From positions 1 to 34,550 of the forward strand of contig SLKT01000084.1 of the NCBI GenBank assembly GCA_007134485.1: a stretch of 34,550 nt of DNA, read 5' to 3'. A program made the position numbers and the translations under genes. Below are positions 264 to 7,270 of this stretch, in pieces; the first letter of the stretch is position 1; every line of letters starts with the position of its first letter. The notes beneath the pieces are model-generated. The model searched no databases. It was not told the DNA's origin and worked only from the letters and a program-made list of their open reading frames with translations. This DNA is from Wenzhouxiangella sp. GTDB lineage: Bacteria; Pseudomonadota; Gammaproteobacteria; Xanthomonadales; Wenzhouxiangellaceae.

Positions 264-749
264 ATGCCCCCGTCCACCCCCGACCTCTGTGACCAACACC
301 CCGACCGAATACAGGTTGTCACCGGGCTGCAATGGCAAAGCTACGGTGGCCGGGCGGCCTTTGCCGGGCCGATCGAGACCGTCAAGTGCTTCGAGGACAA
401 CTCGCGCATCAAGGAAGTGCTGGCCACGCCGGGAAACGGCCGGGTGCTGGTGGTCGACGGCGGTGGTTCGCTGCGCCATGCCCTGATCGGCGACATGATT
501 GCCGCCGGGGCACGCGACCACGATTGGGCGGGCATCATCATCAACGGTGCCTGCCGCGATGTGGAGGTGCTGGCCGGTATCGACTTCGGGGTGTTTGCCC
601 TGGGTTGTGTGCCGATCAAGTCGGTGCGGCGCGGCGAGGGTCAGCTTGGTGTCCCGATCCAGTTTGGCGGGGTGCGCTTTCTGCCCGGTCATCATGTCCA
701 TGCTGACGCCAACGGCGTGATTGTTGCCGATCAGAACCTGGACACATGA
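264..749 (+). CDS. RraA family protein (RNase E regulator / HMG-type aldolase)
   Basis: The 161-residue protein matches the RraA family over its whole length: LCD near the N-terminus, KCFEDN at 41-46, VLVVDGGGSLRHALIGD around 61-77 and the FGGVRFLPG loop near the C-terminus. RraA binds RNase E and inhibits RNA turnover. Relatives are class II aldolases for 4-hydroxy-4-methyl-2-oxoglutarate or oxaloacetate decarboxylases. The aldolase-type metal site needs an Arg-Asp pair, and R98-D99 are present here, so a catalytic role is possible; E. coli RraA lacks this Asp. The ATG at 264 has no clear Shine-Dalgarno but matches the family start. Its stop overlaps the agmatine deiminase start by four bases, so the two are probably co-translated. 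Confidence 0.9.
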   Translation: MPPSTPDLCDQHPDRIQVVTGLQWQSYGGRAAFAGPIETVKCFEDNSRIKEVLATPGNGRVLVVDGGGSLRHALIGDMIAAGARDHDWAGIIINGACRDVEVLAGIDFGVFALGCVPIKSVRRGEGQLGVPIQFGGVRFLPGHHVHADANGVIVADQNLDT

Positions 750-1765
750 GCACCCATTCCGGCCTGCGGGTGCCGGCCGACTGGGAGCCGCGCGCGGCCA
801 CCCTGCTGGCCTGGCCGGGGGTGGAAAGCCGTGATCTTCAGAAACAACTGGTCGAGTTCTACTGCGAACTGATCAGCGTGTTGCGCCGGCACGAGCCGGT
901 CTGGTTGCTGGTGCCACCGGATGAGAAGCCGGCCATTGCCGCGCTGCTCGGCGGCGAGGACGAATCCCTGCACCTGGAACCCCTGCTGACCAACGACCTG
1001 TGGATGCGCGATGCCGCGCCGATCAGCGCGCTGGATCAACAGGGTCGAACGGTTTTTCTGGATGGCAATTTCAATGGCTGGGGCGGAAAGTATCCGCACG
1101 AACTGGACCGCCTGATTCCCAATGTGCTCGCCCGCCGACTCGGGATCAAGCGAGTTGGCCTGCCGATAACCGTCGAGGGCGGCGCCATCGAAGTCAATGA
1201 CCGGGGCGAGCTGTTGACCACCGAGTCCGTATTGCTCAACCCCAATCGCAACAATCCGGAACGCGACCAGGTCGAGTCCGTGCTGCAATCGTTTTTCGGG
1301 GTCGAGCGCGTGCACTGGCTGGCCGGCGGCCTGAGCGGTGATGACACCGATGGCCATATCGACAACCTGGCACGATTCGTGAGCCCTGACCGCCTGGTGT
1401 GCATCAGCCCTGATCTGCCGGCCAATCATCCCGATCGGCAGGTACTGGCCGACAACCATGCGCGCCTGCAAGCCACGCAATGGGGCTCGGGTGGAGTCGA
1501 GATCATCGAATTGCCCTTGCCGGAAGTAATCGGGCGCGCGGGTCGCCGCCTGCCGGCCAGTTACGCCAACTTTCACATGGCCCCGGGGGTGGTTCTGGTC
1601 CCGCAATTCGGTCACAATGCCGATCACGAAGCCTTGAATGTTTTCGCTTCGGTCTTTTCGAATGATCGAGTCGAAGGGTTGGATTGCCGAGTCCTGCTCG
1701 AGCTCGGCGGATCATTGCACTGCATCAGCCAGCCATTGCGATTGGAGGAATTGCCGGAATCATGA
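746..1765 (+). CDS. aguA: Agmatine deiminase
   Basis: Converts agmatine to N-carbamoylputrescine and ammonia, the step from arginine-derived agmatine towards putrescine. It is 339 residues long, close to the usual size of about 340-370 for the peptidyl-arginine deiminase family. Family motifs visible are LLAWPG near 25, LWMRDAAP around 87, GGAIEVND, the GDDTDGHIDNLARF block carrying the catalytic Asp/His, and GGSLHCISQP, where C326 is the expected nucleophile. The start overlaps the RraA-like gene as ATGA, and the stop overlaps the next gene the same way. No N-carbamoylputrescine amidase (aguB) is visible in the window, so the partner must lie elsewhere or the product feeds another route. Confidence 0.95.
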   Translation: MSTHSGLRVPADWEPRAATLLAWPGVESRDLQKQLVEFYCELISVLRRHEPVWLLVPPDEKPAIAALLGGEDESLHLEPLLTNDLWMRDAAPISALDQQGRTVFLDGNFNGWGGKYPHELDRLIPNVLARRLGIKRVGLPITVEGGAIEVNDRGELLTTESVLLNPNRNNPERDQVESVLQSFFGVERVHWLAGGLSGDDTDGHIDNLARFVSPDRLVCISPDLPANHPDRQVLADNHARLQATQWGSGGVEIIELPLPEVIGRAGRRLPASYANFHMAPGVVLVPQFGHNADHEALNVFASVFSNDRVEGLDCRVLLELGGSLHCISQPLRLEELPES

Positions 1766-2709
1766 GCAGCTCAAGCAAGACATTGCACCTGCCCGAAATA
1801 GCCGGCCTGGCGATGGGGGCGATCTTCGTGGGTTTTTTCACTGCGGTGATCTTTTACGAGGCCGACGTGTTCTGGCCCGATACCGGCTTAGTATTCGGGG
1901 CCGCCCTGGTGGTTTGCCTTTGGGGCCTGTGGCGCAGCCAGGTGACCAGCTTGCATGTGATTTACCTGCACAACAATGCCGCCATCGGCATGGCCCGACT
2001 GGGCGTGATCGGATCGGTGCTCTGGTGCGGCTACGTGTTGCTGTTTCATGCCGACCCGACCATTACCGGGATCTGGACCGTACTGTATGCCGCCATGGCC
2101 TTTGCCGCCATCAAGTTGTTCGGGCAGTATGCGGCTGAAAGCTTCGGGCCCCGCCTGCGCGTTGATGCCTACGAGCGCAAGAATCTTGCTGCGGGAACCT
2201 GGCTGGGCGCCTTCACCTTTTCGACCGGACTGATTTTCGGCGGGGCAATGTGGGGCTCCATGGAAGGTGAGGCCCTGGAATACGGCTGGTTGTTCTCGTT
2301 CCTGCCCGGTTACGAGGATGGCTGGTGGATCACGCCGTGGTTTTTCATCATGGGCTGGCTGATCCTGTATCTCACCATGCGATTCTGGTTTCGGCGTGAG
2401 CGTACTGACTTTCGTACGCGCGTCGTTCGTGAGCGCAATCTCGAGGACGCCAGGGCCGCGTCGTATTTCTGCATTGCCTGCGCCATCACCATCGCCTACG
2501 CCGTCCAGGGCGATTATGTCGGCTTCCGCGACAGCCTGGTCGGGTTCAGCGTCATTGCCCTGCCCATTCTGGCCCACGAGCTGCTGCGACCGGGCTCTCC
2601 CGACGCTCATCGGCGCAAGGGCGAGGGCTGGATCTACATTGTCATGGCGATCGTCGGAATCATCACCATTCCCTGGCTGGGCCGGTTGGTCGGTCTGACC
2701 AATCTGTAG
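1762..2709 (+). CDS. Polytopic membrane protein, possibly DUF350-like
   Basis: I place the start at the ATG at 1762, which overlaps the agmatine deiminase stop (ATGA), giving 315 residues. About nine hydrophobic segments are visible, near 13-32, 41-57, 75-95, 102-122, 142-164, 190-208, 233-250, 257-275 and 291-310, with a charged cytoplasmic-type loop at 209-231. Segments 72-95 and 140-165 (HNNAAIGMARLG and ERKNLAAGTWLG) resemble the DUF350 pattern of a polar N-A motif leading into a glycine-rich helix. DUF350 proteins are frequent neighbours of glutathionylspermidine-synthase-like enzymes (E. coli yjfL beside yjfC), which is the next gene here. The DUF350 assignment is an inference from pattern and context; the function is unknown. 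Confidence 0.75.
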   Translation: MSSSSKTLHLPEIAGLAMGAIFVGFFTAVIFYEADVFWPDTGLVFGAALVVCLWGLWRSQVTSLHVIYLHNNAAIGMARLGVIGSVLWCGYVLLFHADPTITGIWTVLYAAMAFAAIKLFGQYAAESFGPRLRVDAYERKNLAAGTWLGAFTFSTGLIFGGAMWGSMEGEALEYGWLFSFLPGYEDGWWITPWFFIMGWLILYLTMRFWFRRERTDFRTRVVRERNLEDARAASYFCIACAITIAYAVQGDYVGFRDSLVGFSVIALPILAHELLRPGSPDAHRRKGEGWIYIVMAIVGIITIPWLGRLVGLTNL

Positions 2710-2724
2710 GGATTGTCCGGATCC

Positions 2725-3933
2725 ATGAGGACGCTGGCCTGGCCACTGGAGCCGGATGAGATCGAGGCCGTTTTCAAGGCCATGCGCTTTGCCCACTGCA
2801 AGTGGGACATTTACCACCGCGGCAAGCACAACCTGATGCCGGATGCCATCGTGCTCAGCCGGTCTGAGCATGAGCTTCTGACCGAGACCGCCGGACGGGT
2901 CTGGAAAAGTCTTCGCCAGCTCGAGAACCAAGTCATCGAAAGTCCCGAGGCATTGGCGGGCGTCGGCATTCCGGAAGCCTTGCGGCCGGCGATTACCGGC
3001 AACAAGCCGAAGGCCCCGCGCTTGAGTCGTTGTGATTTCCACCTGACCGTGGGCGGTCGCTGGATGATCAGCGAGTTCAACGAGGATGGTCCGGGCGGCT
3101 TTTCCGAAGCCCATGGTCTCAATGCCGTACTCTCCGGAGAATGGGGCCCTCGTTTCGATGGGCTCGAGTTTCCCGGTGGCATCCGGGAGCATCTGATCGC
3201 AGCGTTCGATCCCTGGCCGCGGATCGGTCTGGTATATGCGACCGCCTACTCGGAAGACCTGCAGCAGATCACCCTGATTGCAGACTGGCTCAGGGCGGCC
3301 GGTCACCTGGCCGTGTGCGGTTCACCAGCCAACCTGGTCATGGACGGCGATGCGGCCAGCCTGTTCGACGAGCCGGTTGATGCGCTGTTTCGATACTTCC
3401 CGGGCGAATGGTTGGGCGATCTGCCTAATGCTGGCGACTGGTTGCAAGCTATTCAAAGCGTGCCCATGATCAATTCACTCAATGCCCTGGTTTCCCAGTC
3501 CAAGCGCTTCTACGCTGCCGCCAATGAGCATGATCTGGACCTTGCCGCACATGATCGCGAGGTCATCGCCCATCATCTGCCCGAATCGCGCTACCTGGAA
3601 CCGGGCTTGCGAGAGCAGTTGATTGTCGAACGCGAAGACTGGGTGCTCAAGGGCGCCTTCGGTCGCATGGGCGATACCGTGCGTCTCGGAATTGGATGCA
3701 GTCCCCAGGAATGGGCCGATACGCTGGATCGAGCCCTGGGCCAGTCCGACCTGTATGCCGTTCAGCAGCGCTTCGACACCGTCCCAATGTGGTTCAGTTC
3801 CGGCCTGGCCTATGCAAGTGTGGGCGTATACCTGATCGACGGGCAATTTGCCGGTTATTACAGTAGAGTAAGCTCCTACCCGGTCATCAATTACGATTCC
3901 TGCCATGTCGCAACGCTGGTTGAAACTGCTTGA
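2725..3933 (+). CDS. Glutathionylspermidine synthase-like ATP-grasp ligase
   Basis: At 402 residues this matches the preATP-grasp/ATP-grasp family of glutathionylspermidine synthases and E. coli YjfC, which form an amide bond between a carboxylate and an amine such as spermidine. Visible motifs are RCDFHLTVGGRW near 101-114, the acidic metal/ATP loop SEFNEDGPGG at 116-125, and the ATP-grasp segment WVLKGAFGRMGD with K309. There is no N-terminal amidase domain, so it is the synthetase half only. ATG 2725 is preferred over the in-frame TTG at 2713. The 3' end overlaps the next gene by 29 bases. Placement right after agmatine deiminase suggests a polyamine or related amine as substrate, but the partner carboxylate is not known. 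Confidence 0.85.
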   Translation: MRTLAWPLEPDEIEAVFKAMRFAHCKWDIYHRGKHNLMPDAIVLSRSEHELLTETAGRVWKSLRQLENQVIESPEALAGVGIPEALRPAITGNKPKAPRLSRCDFHLTVGGRWMISEFNEDGPGGFSEAHGLNAVLSGEWGPRFDGLEFPGGIREHLIAAFDPWPRIGLVYATAYSEDLQQITLIADWLRAAGHLAVCGSPANLVMDGDAASLFDEPVDALFRYFPGEWLGDLPNAGDWLQAIQSVPMINSLNALVSQSKRFYAAANEHDLDLAAHDREVIAHHLPESRYLEPGLREQLIVEREDWVLKGAFGRMGDTVRLGIGCSPQEWADTLDRALGQSDLYAVQQRFDTVPMWFSSGLAYASVGVYLIDGQFAGYYSRVSSYPVINYDSCHVATLVETA

Positions 3934-4891
3934 GCGTATTGGGGCGCCCACGCGCTCCGTCCCCGAGCTGAGTGATGTTCGCCGTCCACCCCGCCTGCGC
4001 CAGGGCGTGTGGCACGAATTCCGCGATTACGACATCCTCTTTCAGCTCTACGGACCGCCGGAGAGCAGTCCGTTCTTTCCCTATCACTGTCCGACCCTGT
4101 TTGCCGCCATCGATCGGCTCAACCTGCAACCACGCCTGACCGAAATCAGCGGCGAGGTCACTGTCGAGCGACCGGAAGGAGCGTGGGAATGGCTGGATCA
4201 AGACACCTTCGTGTTACTCGAACTGCCCGGGGGGCTGAGCGTACAAATGGGCGCTCATCTGCTCATCGAGGCCGGCGCGCAATTGATCAGCACTTTCGAT
4301 CACTGGCCGCTGGCCAACCCGGTACGCCTGTTCGATGAGTCCGACTACACCGGCATGGAAGCCATGTCCTGGCCGCCGCAGCAGATCCGACTCGATGTGG
4401 CCATCGATTCGCGCGATATTCTCGATTCGATGGTGACTCTGGCGCCACGGGTCTTCGAGCGTACCGTGAAGGGCATTGCCGCCGATGCGCCGGCGGTGTG
4501 GATGTGCGATTCGCGCCGCACGGTGGCGACCCGGCCCGGTCCAGGCGATTTCGACAATCGTTACTTCATCGATGATTCCATCCTGCCGGGAGAAGCCCAG
4601 TTGCGACGCCTGGGTATCCGCAAGCTGGTCTTTTTCGGCGCCTCGGCCCAGACCTCGCCGTCGAACGATTTGTCGGTGTTCATCAATCAATGCCATCAAG
4701 CCGGCATGGAACTGATCAGCGTGGCCCTCGATGATCCGGCCACCTGGGCGGTGCCCTTGCCCATGAGTCCACCGCCCGAGGTGCGTCTGTCCGGGATCAA
4801 GTTTCCGAAGTCCCAGATTGGTGGTTTCGGGCGCAAGGTGCCGGTGCCTTCCGAGAGTTCGGGTGGCTCGTTTTCCGGGGCAGGGGGGTAG
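3905..4891 (+). CDS. Conserved-looking hypothetical protein in the polyamine-type operon
   Basis: I do not recognise this 328-residue protein. It has no signal peptide or membrane segment and looks cytosolic. Two parts are visible. The N-terminal half (about 1-190) is rich in aromatic and acidic residues, with HEFRDYDILFQLYG near 37-50. The C-terminal half (about 195-285) alternates beta-strand-like hydrophobic runs such as IRKLVFFGAS and MELISVALDD. A low-complexity Ser/Gly tail ends it. Its start lies inside the ligase gene (29-base overlap), which implies co-translation. It may be a subunit, carrier or partner of the ligase, but nothing in the sequence proves this. Confidence 0.8.
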   Translation: MSQRWLKLLERIGAPTRSVPELSDVRRPPRLRQGVWHEFRDYDILFQLYGPPESSPFFPYHCPTLFAAIDRLNLQPRLTEISGEVTVERPEGAWEWLDQDTFVLLELPGGLSVQMGAHLLIEAGAQLISTFDHWPLANPVRLFDESDYTGMEAMSWPPQQIRLDVAIDSRDILDSMVTLAPRVFERTVKGIAADAPAVWMCDSRRTVATRPGPGDFDNRYFIDDSILPGEAQLRRLGIRKLVFFGASAQTSPSNDLSVFINQCHQAGMELISVALDDPATWAVPLPMSPPPEVRLSGIKFPKSQIGGFGRKVPVPSESSGGSFSGAGG

Positions 4892-4915
4892 TGAAGGTAC
4901 AAGGTTCAAGGTTTT

Positions 4916-5097
4916 CTGATTAGCGTCGTGTCTCAGTGCCCGGGCTTCGTTACGGGCAAAGCCGTCCTCGGGTGGTGAATTCCGCTTCAGTTCGACGCGG
5001 TGGCGAGGCCTTCAGCGAAATTCCCCACCCGAGGACGGCTCGTAGCATCGACGTCTATCTATATTGCCAATGACTGCTGAGACACGACGCTAATCAG
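4916..5097. repeat. 182-bp palindromic element with nested inverted repeats (MITE/REP-like)
   Basis: The outer arms 4916-4936 and 5077-5097 are perfect 21-base reverse complements. Inside, 4961-4981 and 5019-5039 pair over 21 bases with one mismatch. The whole unit could fold into a two-tier hairpin. GTTCAAGGTTT occurs on both sides (4904-4914 and 5103-5113), possibly a target duplication, although the same word also occurs at 7214-7224. No protein is encoded. It lies between the unknown gene and the deoxyhypusine-synthase-like gene and may interrupt or modulate the operon. Confidence 0.75.
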
Positions 5098-5134
5098 GTA
5101 AAGTTCAAGGTTTAAGGGAAAAGCAGGTGATGGC

Positions 5135-6109
5135 TTGACCACCATTCGGGAGTTCGTTGACACCCATTTCGAGCACTTCAATGCGCGTGAGTTGCGTGCG
5201 GCGGTGCGTGCATTGAAATCTCATCTGGATCAGGGTGGGCGCTTGTTTCTGACCCTGGCCGGGGCGATGAGTACGGCCGGGATGGGGCGCACCCTGGCGC
5301 CGGCCATACGCGCCGGGCTGGTCCACGGTATTTCCTGTACCGGGGCCAATCTGGAAGAAGATGCGTTCCGGCTGGTTGGCGCCAACAGTTACGAGTCCAT
5401 CCCCGATTGGCCCACGCTCAAGCCCGAGGAGGAATTGGAGCTGTTCGAACGTGGCGCCAACCGGGTCACTGATACCACCATTCCCGATGAGGTGATGCTG
5501 GCCGTCGACGAGCAATTGATCGCACGCTGGGCCGCGGCCGCCCACAGCGGTCGATCGGCCATGCCGGCCGATTTCATGCTTGACGCCCTCAGCGACCCGG
5601 CGCTGACCGTTCGTTATGTCGATGCCGAGTCAAGCTGGCTTCTGGCGGCACGCGACATGAACGTTCCGATCTGGACGCCGGGCTGGGAAGACTCCAGCAC
5701 AGCCAATGCATTCAGTGCCGCCGTGATGCGCGGCGAAATCGGCTCGCACCATTGCGTGGAATCCGGCACGGCGCAAATGAACCGACTGATCCGCTGGTAC
5801 CTGGAAAACTGTGATCCGGCGCCGGGCATCGGATTCTTGCAGGTCGGCGGCGGTATCGCCGGGGATTTCCCGATCTGCGTGGTGCCCTTGCTGGTCAAGG
5901 AACTGCAGATGCCCGAGGTGCCGGCCTGGGGTTATTTCTGCCAGATCAGCGATGCCGAGCGAAGCTATGGCGGCTACTCCGGCGCGCCGCCCAACGAAAA
6001 GATTGCCTGGGGCAAGCTCAAGCCCGAAACGCCGCGTTTTTCCATCCAGTCCGACGCCAGTATCGTGTTGCCGTTGATGCTGGCCTACCTGCTGGACACG
6101 GAAGCCTGA
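5135..6109 (+). CDS. Deoxyhypusine synthase-like protein lacking the catalytic lysine
   Basis: The 324-residue protein follows the deoxyhypusine synthase fold along its length: LTLAGAMSTAGMG near 44, the EEDAF motif near 75, GWEDSS near 186, VGGGIAGDFPI around 237-246 and the YGGYSGAPPNEKIAWGKL segment near 280. Deoxyhypusine synthase transfers aminobutyl from spermidine to eIF5A lysine through an enzyme-lysine imine. The family motif GGGxxK is here GGGIAG, with Gly243 at the lysine position. Bacteria have no eIF5A, so the true reaction must differ; an NAD-dependent step on a polyamine is plausible. The start is a TTG at 5135 with AGGTGA at 5125-5130. The nearby ATG at 5130 is out of frame and stops after two codons. 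No other in-frame start exists upstream. Confidence 0.88.
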   Translation: MTTIREFVDTHFEHFNARELRAAVRALKSHLDQGGRLFLTLAGAMSTAGMGRTLAPAIRAGLVHGISCTGANLEEDAFRLVGANSYESIPDWPTLKPEEELELFERGANRVTDTTIPDEVMLAVDEQLIARWAAAAHSGRSAMPADFMLDALSDPALTVRYVDAESSWLLAARDMNVPIWTPGWEDSSTANAFSAAVMRGEIGSHHCVESGTAQMNRLIRWYLENCDPAPGIGFLQVGGGIAGDFPICVVPLLVKELQMPEVPAWGYFCQISDAERSYGGYSGAPPNEKIAWGKLKPETPRFSIQSDASIVLPLMLAYLLDTEA

Positions 6110-6193: not shown

Positions 6194-7051
6194 TCAGTCT
6201 TCGCCATTCTCGTCATCATCGTCATTATCGTCGTCTTCATCTTCATCCAGATCGGAGTGGACATAGAACATACCCTCTTCCCCAAACAGGTAGTCATCGG
6301 GGGTCCATTCCAGCATTTCCCCCTCGATGCAGTCGACGTGTTCGTCGATCACCAGAGCCAGGGTGGCCTCTTCCTCGTTTTCGTCATAGTCTGCCGGCAG
6401 GTGGGTGGCGATATCGAAAGCATCTTCGAAATTCAGATTTCCACCATTATTGACAGTGGCGGTACCCAGACACAGCACACCCGGCGAGGGCAGGGGTTCA
6501 GGCAGGTAGGCGAGGGTCAATTCCATGCCGGGCTCGAGCTGCTTTCCGTTGAAAACATAATCGAACATTGGCGCGGTCCAGCGATACATCATTCGAGCCC
6601 AGGCGCCATCCTCGACCACTTCATCCGTTTCGCTATCGATCTGTACGAACTCGAGGTGGGCAATGCTGGACTTTCCCGCCTGTCCATCGGGTCCCTCGCC
6701 AGCTCCTGGCGAAGAGCAGAAGTCCGGCACATCGCCATTATCATCATCATCGGCATTGCCATCGTCACCCGGGTCCCCGTTGTCGTCATCATCGTCATCG
6801 TCATCGGCAAACGGTGGTGGATTCGGGTTGCCCGGTGGGCTCGGGTCACTCGGTGGTCCAGCATGCGGCGGTGGACCGGCATGAGGTGGTGGTCCCGGGG
6901 GAAAGAAGGGGCCACCGATACCCACTCCGGGTTCAACGAGCGGCCCACCAGGACCGAACGGACCACCGGACTGGCCCAGGGCTTGTGAACACAGCAAGAA
7001 CAGGCCTGACACCAGGACCAGAACAAAAGGAAGGGGTAGATTTCGTTTCAT
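6194..7051 (-). CDS. Exported proline- and aspartate-rich protein
   Basis: The start at 7051 gives 285 residues and is supported by an AGAGGA ribosome site seven bases upstream; an in-frame TTG at 7066 is less likely. A signal peptide is clear (MKRN, then a hydrophobic run ending SQALGQ, about residues 1-27). The mature part begins with a Gly/Pro-rich stretch (about 28-80), followed by poly-Asp and DDDDNGD-type runs (about 81-107). Next is a compact domain with three cysteines (about 111-245), then a second Asp/Glu tail (about 258-285). Acidic low-complexity flanks of this kind can bind calcium or keep a secreted protein soluble in salt. I recognise no family. It stands alone, with its own terminator. 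Confidence 0.8.
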   Translation of the reverse strand: MKRNLPLPFVLVLVSGLFLLCSQALGQSGGPFGPGGPLVEPGVGIGGPFFPPGPPPHAGPPPHAGPPSDPSPPGNPNPPPFADDDDDDDDNGDPGDDGNADDDDNGDVPDFCSSPGAGEGPDGQAGKSSIAHLEFVQIDSETDEVVEDGAWARMMYRWTAPMFDYVFNGKQLEPGMELTLAYLPEPLPSPGVLCLGTATVNNGGNLNFEDAFDIATHLPADYDENEEEATLALVIDEHVDCIEGEMLEWTPDDYLFGEEGMFYVHSDLDEDEDDDNDDDDENGED

Positions 7052-7270
7052 GGCGATTCCTCTCAAATTTTGACGAATGCACAGCGATTTGTGCTTTGGT
7101 CGTTGATGGAGTGCCGGGCAACGAGATCCCCTTCACATTATTCTCGCGACCGGCAACAACCGATCATCGAAGTGGCAGCCTATCACGCATGCGTGTGCCA
7201 AGTCCGTGATGCAGTTCAAGGTTTTCAATTCAACCGGAATGAAAAGGACCGCATCTCCTCGTCCGCTGAG

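Follow-up and report, generated by a model that had tools for sequence, protein, structure and literature searches.

What does a gene cluster that brings a GspS-family ligase together with polyamine genes modify? The question is raised by six genes that occupy positions 264–6109, all on the + strand, of a contig from Wenzhouxiangella sp. (SLKT01000084.1, assembly GCA_007134485.1). The window, by which we mean the whole stretch of DNA analyzed, is that one entire contig of 34,550 bases, and its sequence starts at base 1. In order, the genes encode an RraA-like protein, a second AguA-like guanidino hydrolase, a DUF350-like integral membrane protein, a GspS/YgiC-like ATP-grasp ligase, an unrecognized fifth protein and a deoxyhypusine-synthase-like (DHS) enzyme. 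A sequence-only reading of the window had proposed that the cluster makes or attaches a polyamine-type amide and had left the acceptor open; the ligase and tail evidence given here fits that proposal and points to an operon-encoded protein with a GGFG...GG tail as the acceptor. With somewhat more belief than doubt, we regard the cluster as a protein-polyamination module in which the DHS-like enzyme would provide the polyamine, the ligase would join it to the fifth protein, and the DUF350-like protein would act at the membrane.

Results

The ligase gene (2725..3933, + strand) encodes a protein that matches PF03738 (GSP_synth; 1e-14) with 55 bits against a cutoff of 29.3, over residues 45–401 of a 406-amino-acid reading. 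The Pfam scan found no amidase or other domain on it, in agreement with the sequence-only reading, which had noted the lack of a glutathionylspermidine amidase domain. No NCBIfam model matched at E 1, and a comparison of the ligase profile with PDB sequences returned nothing credible, reaching no glutathionylspermidine synthetase structure either. E. coli K-12 contains the GspS-like ligases YgiC and YjfC besides Gsp. Overall identity of the window ligase is 19% to YgiC and 18% to YjfC, and in an 11-row alignment eight residues (R102, D104, E117, N119, K260, K309, R314, and R381) are invariant with both; we take these positions to be catalytic in ATP-grasp ligases. By these residues and the Pfam match, we classify the window ligase as a homologue of the YgiC/YjfC-type peptide-spermidine ligases. 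The genome contains a single GspS-family match and a single DHS match, both from this cluster, in an assembly that is 94.6% complete.

In RefSeq both YgiC and YjfC bear the name peptide--spermidine ligase. The genes upstream of them encode their partners, the DUF1190 proteins YgiB and YjfM, which end in TRGGFG...SRSMGG and SRGGYG...HWGG, respectively, and this layout is the same as that of the fifth protein of the cluster. The fifth gene (3905..4891, + strand) encodes 328 amino acids ending in ...GGFGRKVPVPSESSGGSFSGAGG, with the GGFG motif at 4820–4831 (residues 306–309) and, together with it, a C-terminal Ser/Gly tail ending in GG at 4820..4888. In all 15 complete C-termini of the fifth family, the window included, GG[FY]G lies near the C-terminus (GGFG in 14, GGYG in L025; loci bear the prefix L and genomes the prefix G), a Ser/Gly-containing tail follows it, and the last residue is Gly, preceded by a further Gly in 12. 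At E 1, none of the 14 aligned family members matched any Pfam family, DUF1190 included. An AlphaFold model of the fifth protein has fair confidence overall (pLDDT 76), with residues 296–310 and 315–328 below 50, and the tail is accordingly predicted by the model to be disordered or flexible. Foldseek gave a best E of 0.08 and nothing below 0.001, a second structural comparison gave a best Z of 4.1 and nothing at or above 5, the family profile found no credible match among PDB sequences, and there was no similarity to E. coli YjfK (DUF2491). At the level of the model, the fifth protein is thus one with no usable fold match, which is not evidence of a new fold.

To see how far such tails accompany ligases of this class, we used the best 30 of 43 loci obtained from a PF03738 search of 200 sampled Pseudomonadota genomes (43 places in 38 genomes). 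The loci were not chosen for a tail, and a tail was counted when GG[FYW]G fell within the last 40 residues. Among these best 30 of 43 loci, the gene directly upstream of the ligase carries such a tail in 26: 25 were matched automatically, 23 with GG[FY]G and 2 with GGWG (L065, L069), and the other is L072, a shortened locus. None of the 22 listed open reading frames (ORFs) downstream of the ligases has the tail. As background, the pattern was found in 14 of 244 ORFs drawn from both the window and further loci, 12 of which belong to the fifth family or are E. coli partners; this leaves 2 of 232, neither with a Gly or Ser end, and 1 of 232 when GG[FY]G is sought in the last 45 residues, a rough control because many of the background ORFs are probably not real genes. 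The tailed proteins upstream of YgiC/YjfC-type ligases in L055–L084 range from about 110 to 300 predicted amino acids. Taken together, we infer that a GG[FY]G-tailed neighbor defines the YgiC/YjfC-type ligase family, and the window ligase has just such an adjacent partner. Because its tail matches those of YgiB and YjfM and of genes upstream of GspS-family ligases, the fifth protein is, judged by sequence, most likely the ligase's substrate and would receive a polyamine amide at its C-terminus. We propose GGFG and the tail as the putative site of ligase recognition and conjugation.

Several observations speak against this assignment. No tailed neighbor is present at L061 and L067, L066 has only a variant tail (RQGFGG...FGG), and L075 has only ambiguous matches downstream. 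Of the 25 tails matched automatically, 16 end in Gly, 8 in Ser and 1 in Glu; since nine thus end in a residue other than Gly, the ligase class does not strictly require Gly at that position. In addition, the fifth protein contains many invariant polar residues (HCPT, CD, DNRY, DD), which suggests that it is more than a passive acceptor. Such enzyme-like conservation would suit an arrangement in which the ligase, as in the synthesis of glutathionylspermidine, amidates a small molecule, such as a glutathione-like thiol or metabolite, with the fifth protein an accessory enzyme whose tail serves for docking only; the naming of PF03738 after glutathionylspermidine synthase leans the same way. We nevertheless consider amidation of a small molecule unlikely. 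RefSeq calls YgiC a peptide ligase, and beside other ligases of the class it is the tail that recurs and not the rest of the protein. YgiC also lacks glutathionylspermidine synthase activity, according to the part of PMC12506659 available to us, which cites Sui 2012. The pairing of ligase and tail is the best-supported step of the polyamination mechanism; the choice of polyamine is less well supported, and the role at the membrane is a guess that draws on association only.

Which polyamine, then, would be joined to the tail? The AguA-like gene (746..1765, + strand; PAD_porph, PF04371 8e-89) scores 175 bits to the agmatine deiminase model TIGR03380, under the cutoff of 381.8. This cutoff is not decisive, because the AguA that adjoins AguB elsewhere in the genome fails it too (176 bits). 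The best solved relatives of the AguA-like protein are 1xkn, 1zbr, and 6b10; it shares 32% identity with the genome's other AguA, which lies on contig C121, and it retains the motifs GDDTDGHIDNLARF and LHCISQ, which we take to be of the catalytic type. The sequence-only reading had stated that aguB and spermidine synthase are missing, which is true of the neighborhood and does not extend to the genome: an AguA-AguB pair lies on C121, contig C3 holds SpeA (745.7 bits to TIGR01273) and, beside it, a homologue of spermidine synthase, and C197 holds a homologue of AdoMet decarboxylase. The arginine-to-putrescine route is thus covered elsewhere in the genome, and the spermidine route probably is as well. 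It follows that the cluster's AguA-like gene is an additional copy. In a count of PAD_porph matches above 250 bits, exactly one is present in 11 of 12 genus genomes that lack the cassette (none in G008), and among the four cassette genomes there are two in G000 and in G006, one plus one cut by the contig end in G012, and the cassette copy only in G014.

The DHS-like gene (5135..6109, + strand, with an uncertain TTG start) matches PF01916 at 6e-38. W292 and K294 are invariant in all 12 aligned sequences and fall, as WGK, on the WGK/WNK region in DHS chains of solved structure; K294 presumably occupies the catalytic lysine position. A critical conserved lysine in DHS is described in the portion of PMC10981699 that we could consult. 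The best NCBIfam model is PRK00770, homospermidine biosynthesis protein, at 123 bits, below its cutoff of 450. Among 24 genus relatives, DHS occurs in four genomes, all of them cassette carriers, and as a fragment in G008 (137 amino acids at the end of a contig, with 56% identity to the window DHS and adjoining an unrelated-looking gene) that is probably contamination, judging from its sequence context. In G031, a genome of the same order, a DHS 50% identical to the window's lies in an AguA-DHS-SpeA-AguB run without a ligase, and in a Myxococcales locus (L025:768-3289) the fifth gene is followed in sequence by a DHS-like gene, an agmatinase and a pyruvoyl-dependent arginine decarboxylase. The G031 run, at about 7100–12000 of L051 (G031:C1:268000-284000), is of an arginine-to-homospermidine type. 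Because PRK00770 is the best model, and because of the G031 run and the L025 neighbors, a homospermidine-type product made from agmatine-derived putrescine is supported, and the DHS-like enzyme probably supplies homospermidine. A coupling of agmatine such as that carried out by the caldomycin synthase CdmS (PMC10981699) is conceivable and would give the extra AguA a natural substrate. A point against homospermidine is that spermidine could be the donor, since spermidine-synthesis homologues are present in the genome.

Membership in the DHS family, with the lysine region kept, raises a different prospect, namely that the enzyme modifies protein directly by attaching an aminobutyl group to a lysine, either in the fifth protein or in another target, in parallel to hypusination. 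Its nearest curated model, though under cutoff, is one of homospermidine biosynthesis, and the related DHS genes of G031 and L025 adjoin putrescine-pathway genes; we therefore hold a protein-modifying DHS to be very improbable and retain the synthesis of a free polyamine as the role of this enzyme in the polyamination module.

The DUF350-like protein (1762..2709, + strand) has 315 amino acids. The sequence-only reading had named a search of this gene for DUF350 as a check, and the outcome was divided: PF03994 matches all 11 aligned members, the window included, at E 0.1 or better (best 9e-10), and the window protein on its own reaches 23.3 bits, short of the 26-bit cutoff, which tells against its assignment. 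An hhalign comparison with five YjfL-type proteins gave a probability of 3% and an E of 0.014. The model of the protein (mbdbc4077f947; pLDDT 74) has about nine predicted long helices and found no structural match below E 0.001 in the PDB.

To determine whether the gene order is kept, we searched with the ligase protein over 41 genomes, comprising the window's own, 24 of the same genus group and 16 of the same order. The ligase is present in seven of the 41, all from the genus group, and in the six relatives the neighbors are identical as far as the contigs reach: the AguA-like and DUF350-like genes in 6/6, RraA in 5/6 (G012 is cut), the fifth gene in 5/6, and DHS in 4/6 (contigs end in G012 and G014). 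Named genome contigs scanned with the fifth family yielded 15 loci, of which L014, L016, L019, L020, and L022 appear to be contigs of relatives already counted. DUF350, ligase, fifth gene and DHS stand together in 10 of the 15, six of Wenzhouxiangella type (L014, L015, L016, L018, L019, and L020) and four from outside the genus (Thioalkalivibrio halophilus, L021; a Nannocystineae metagenome-assembled genome [MAG], L017; and Myxococcales MAGs, L023 and L024). The contig of L022 ends within the fifth gene, and that of L025 begins within it and continues into DHS. Three Planctomycetes loci also contain the fifth gene, with an intact ligase in L028, a 61-residue ligase remnant in L027 and no detectable ligase in L026. 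A chance neighborhood, the outcome that the sequence-only reading had tied to two conditions together, a gene order not conserved in relatives and a ligase without amine-dependent ATPase activity, is rejected, as the order recurs in the six genus relatives and in loci of other phyla as far as contigs reach.

The membership of individual genes is less uniform. RraA is found in five of the 15 loci (L014, L015, L016, L019, and L020) and adjoins the cassette in the relatives' loci L008, L009, L010, L012, and L013, with no match in L017 and L021; RraA was seen inside the genus group only, and we rejected it as a core member. The AguA-like gene is present in eight of the 15 loci (L014–L017 and L019–L022), and the contigs of L024 and L025 end before its position. 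We found no support for it as an obligatory member. In T. halophilus this gene is split over two frames (L021:6873-7821; residues 8–119 and 135–331) and is, because of the two reading frames, frameshifted or mis-sequenced.

Part of this distribution argues against a single functional module. In L018 and L023 the AguA-like gene was undetected over the roughly 300 bases that precede DUF350, and in L026–L028 it was likewise undetected, so that it is not general. DHS was undetected in the three Planctomycetes loci and lies on the opposite strand, convergent, in the three Myxococcales contigs L023–L025. The convergent DHS genes, the ligase units of L018 and L023 without AguA, and the DHS and AguA of G031 without a ligase would all be expected if two units, one of ligase, membrane protein and acceptor and one for free polyamine (AguA, DHS), were neighbors by chance. 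That DHS is confined to cassette carriers among the genus relatives, apart from the G008 fragment, and that the four genes occur together in 10 of 15 named loci, make such a pair of unrelated units quite unlikely, and we keep to a single polyamination module.

The fifth family is rare: it occurs in 1 of 274 sampled genomes of the class and 1 of 398 of the phylum, the window's own both times, and because the rows listed from these samples held no genus member other than the window's genome, the two counts describe the wider class and phylum. Many carriers bear sample codes of soda-lake sediments. In the part of PMC6146748 that was available, CSSed and T3Sed10 serve as prefixes for hypersaline Kulunda Steppe soda lakes, and CSSed16 codes were not seen in that part; a haloalkaliphilic Wenzhouxiangella from lakes of this kind is described in the available part of PMC7691419. 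Trees of the ligase and of the fifth protein group the Wenzhouxiangella-type sequences and the DHS tree does not, with mixed supports, so that horizontal transfer is not firmly claimed here. In L026–L028 the fifth gene is followed by a peptide methionine sulfoxide reductase-like gene and a SpoU-type RNA methylase-like gene, identified by Pfam in L028 and judged by eye from translations in L026 and L027. The L027 remnant (L027:9706-9888) consists of the final 61 ligase residues directly after an ORF that by eye resembles a secretion ATPase, and reflects a deletion or an assembly error.

The compact layout of the cluster was read directly from the sequence. The first gene (264..749, + strand) encodes the 161-amino-acid RraA-like protein (PF03737 5e-45). 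The sequence-only reading had described an unbroken chain of overlaps; RraA and AguA overlap by 4 bp (746–749), AguA and DUF350 by 4 bp (1762–1765), and the ligase and fifth genes by 29 bp (3905–3933), and the chain is broken between DUF350, whose stop codon is at 2707–2709, and the ligase, for which the next start is TTG at 2713 (3 bp) or ATG at 2725 (a 15-bp gap). Conservation favors the ATG, with the TTG possible. The remaining structural statements of that reading hold, namely that all six genes are on the + strand, that its RraA, agmatine deiminase (PAD_porph), GspS (GSP_synth), and deoxyhypusine synthase calls are matched in Pfam with the fifth gene lacking a family, and that a DHS-like gene follows the fifth gene. 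DHS starts 243 bp downstream of the fifth gene, and this gap includes a MITE/REP-like inverted-repeat element (4915..5100, no strand assigned) with 21-bp perfect inverted termini (4916–4936 and 5077–5097), found at 20 places in the genome including itself (alignments of at least 118 bases, 77–100% identity). The distance from the fifth gene to DHS is much shorter in relatives, for which reason the repeat looks like a later insertion. Another copy, at G000:C121:3811-3993, lies beside the AguA-AguB pair of that contig, and the element measures 180–190 bp. Downstream of the cluster, an Asp-rich low-complexity ORF is present at 6194–7066 on the − strand.

Discussion

Our inference as to the reaction, the polyamine involved, and the physiological and membrane roles is as follows. 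In an NAD-dependent reaction, the DHS-like enzyme would transfer aminobutyl groups from putrescine (or agmatine) units to give a polyamine of the homospermidine type. In clusters that have it, the AguA-like enzyme would help to provide the deiminated precursor, and SpeA and AguB, encoded elsewhere in the genome, would act alongside it. The ligase would recognize the fifth protein by its GG[FY]G motif and flexible tail, activate its C-terminal glycine carboxylate, and join the polyamine to it as an amide. The DUF350-like protein may then anchor or handle the modified fifth protein at the inner membrane.

A bolder version, which we judge improbable, has the fifth protein serve as a polyamine carrier, an amine of the putrescine or agmatine type being loaded by the ligase on its C-terminal glycine and then deiminated and elongated, while bound, by the AguA-like and DHS-like enzymes. 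Its logic resembles that of LysW, a carrier protein in lysine biosynthesis. If such a carrier exists, protein-attached homospermidine would be used at the membrane, polyamine assembly would take place on a carrier, and the product would be a C-terminal counterpart of hypusine.

The polyamination module that we favor matters in the first place for substrates. Peptide-spermidine ligases were described recently, and it is difficult to assign natural substrates to them; the presence of a GG[FY]G tail on an adjoining gene offers an easy rule by which candidate protein substrates of the class can be picked out. The cluster extends this rule to another protein family, with a DHS-family polyamine synthase beside it. 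If the module functions as proposed, C-terminal protein polyamination would be a wider bacterial modification and would involve more than one polyamine.

How much of this is new? Ligases of this class, and their pairing with DUF350, are already known. We do not claim the tail rule as new, as Pederick et al. 2023 may already report YgiB/YjfM tail peptides as substrates. As far as the literature was searched, the new elements are the acceptor family, the DHS-type synthase and extra AguA-like gene alongside it, and the spread over three phyla. The statement of the sequence-only reading that this is not a known route was too strong, given that the ligase is homologous to YgiC/YjfC and that operons with a ligase and DUF350 are described in the part of PMC11237479 we consulted.

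Among known systems, YgiB-YgiC and YjfIJKLMC of E. coli are like the cluster in combining a GspS-family ATP-grasp ligase with the same active-site residues and a neighbor with a GG[FY]G...GG tail, and the yjf run also includes a DUF350 membrane protein, YjfL, whose gene adjoins yjfM. Unlike in E. coli, the tail in the cluster is found on a 328-amino-acid protein without a Pfam match, and its gene lies downstream of the ligase rather than upstream. The DUF350 protein has 315 amino acids compared to 132 in E. coli, DHS-like and second AguA-like genes are present, and PspA, DUF2170, and DUF2491 are absent among the six genes. GspSA shares PF03738 with the cluster ligase, which has about 402 amino acids and in which the amidase domain was not found. 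PspA-CesT/Tir operons, as set out in the available part of PMC11237479, contain a GspS-related ATP-grasp ligase, DUF350, and DUF1190, with AdoMet decarboxylase in variants, and related DUF350/ATP-grasp operons are linked there to membrane dynamics. On that partial account, these operons are like the cluster in placing a polyamine gene, an ATP-grasp ligase and DUF350 in one operon, whereas the cluster lacks PspA and its polyamine gene is of the DHS type, not AdoMet decarboxylase. Finally, CdmS and the SpeY-type homospermidine synthases are DHS-family enzymes that make homospermidine or a diguanidino precursor, as reported in the accessible part of PMC10981699. The cluster DHS is, like them to the extent that source describes them, a bacterial DHS-family enzyme with the catalytic lysine kept; unlike them, it falls far under both NCBIfam equivalog cutoffs and is linked to a candidate protein ligase.

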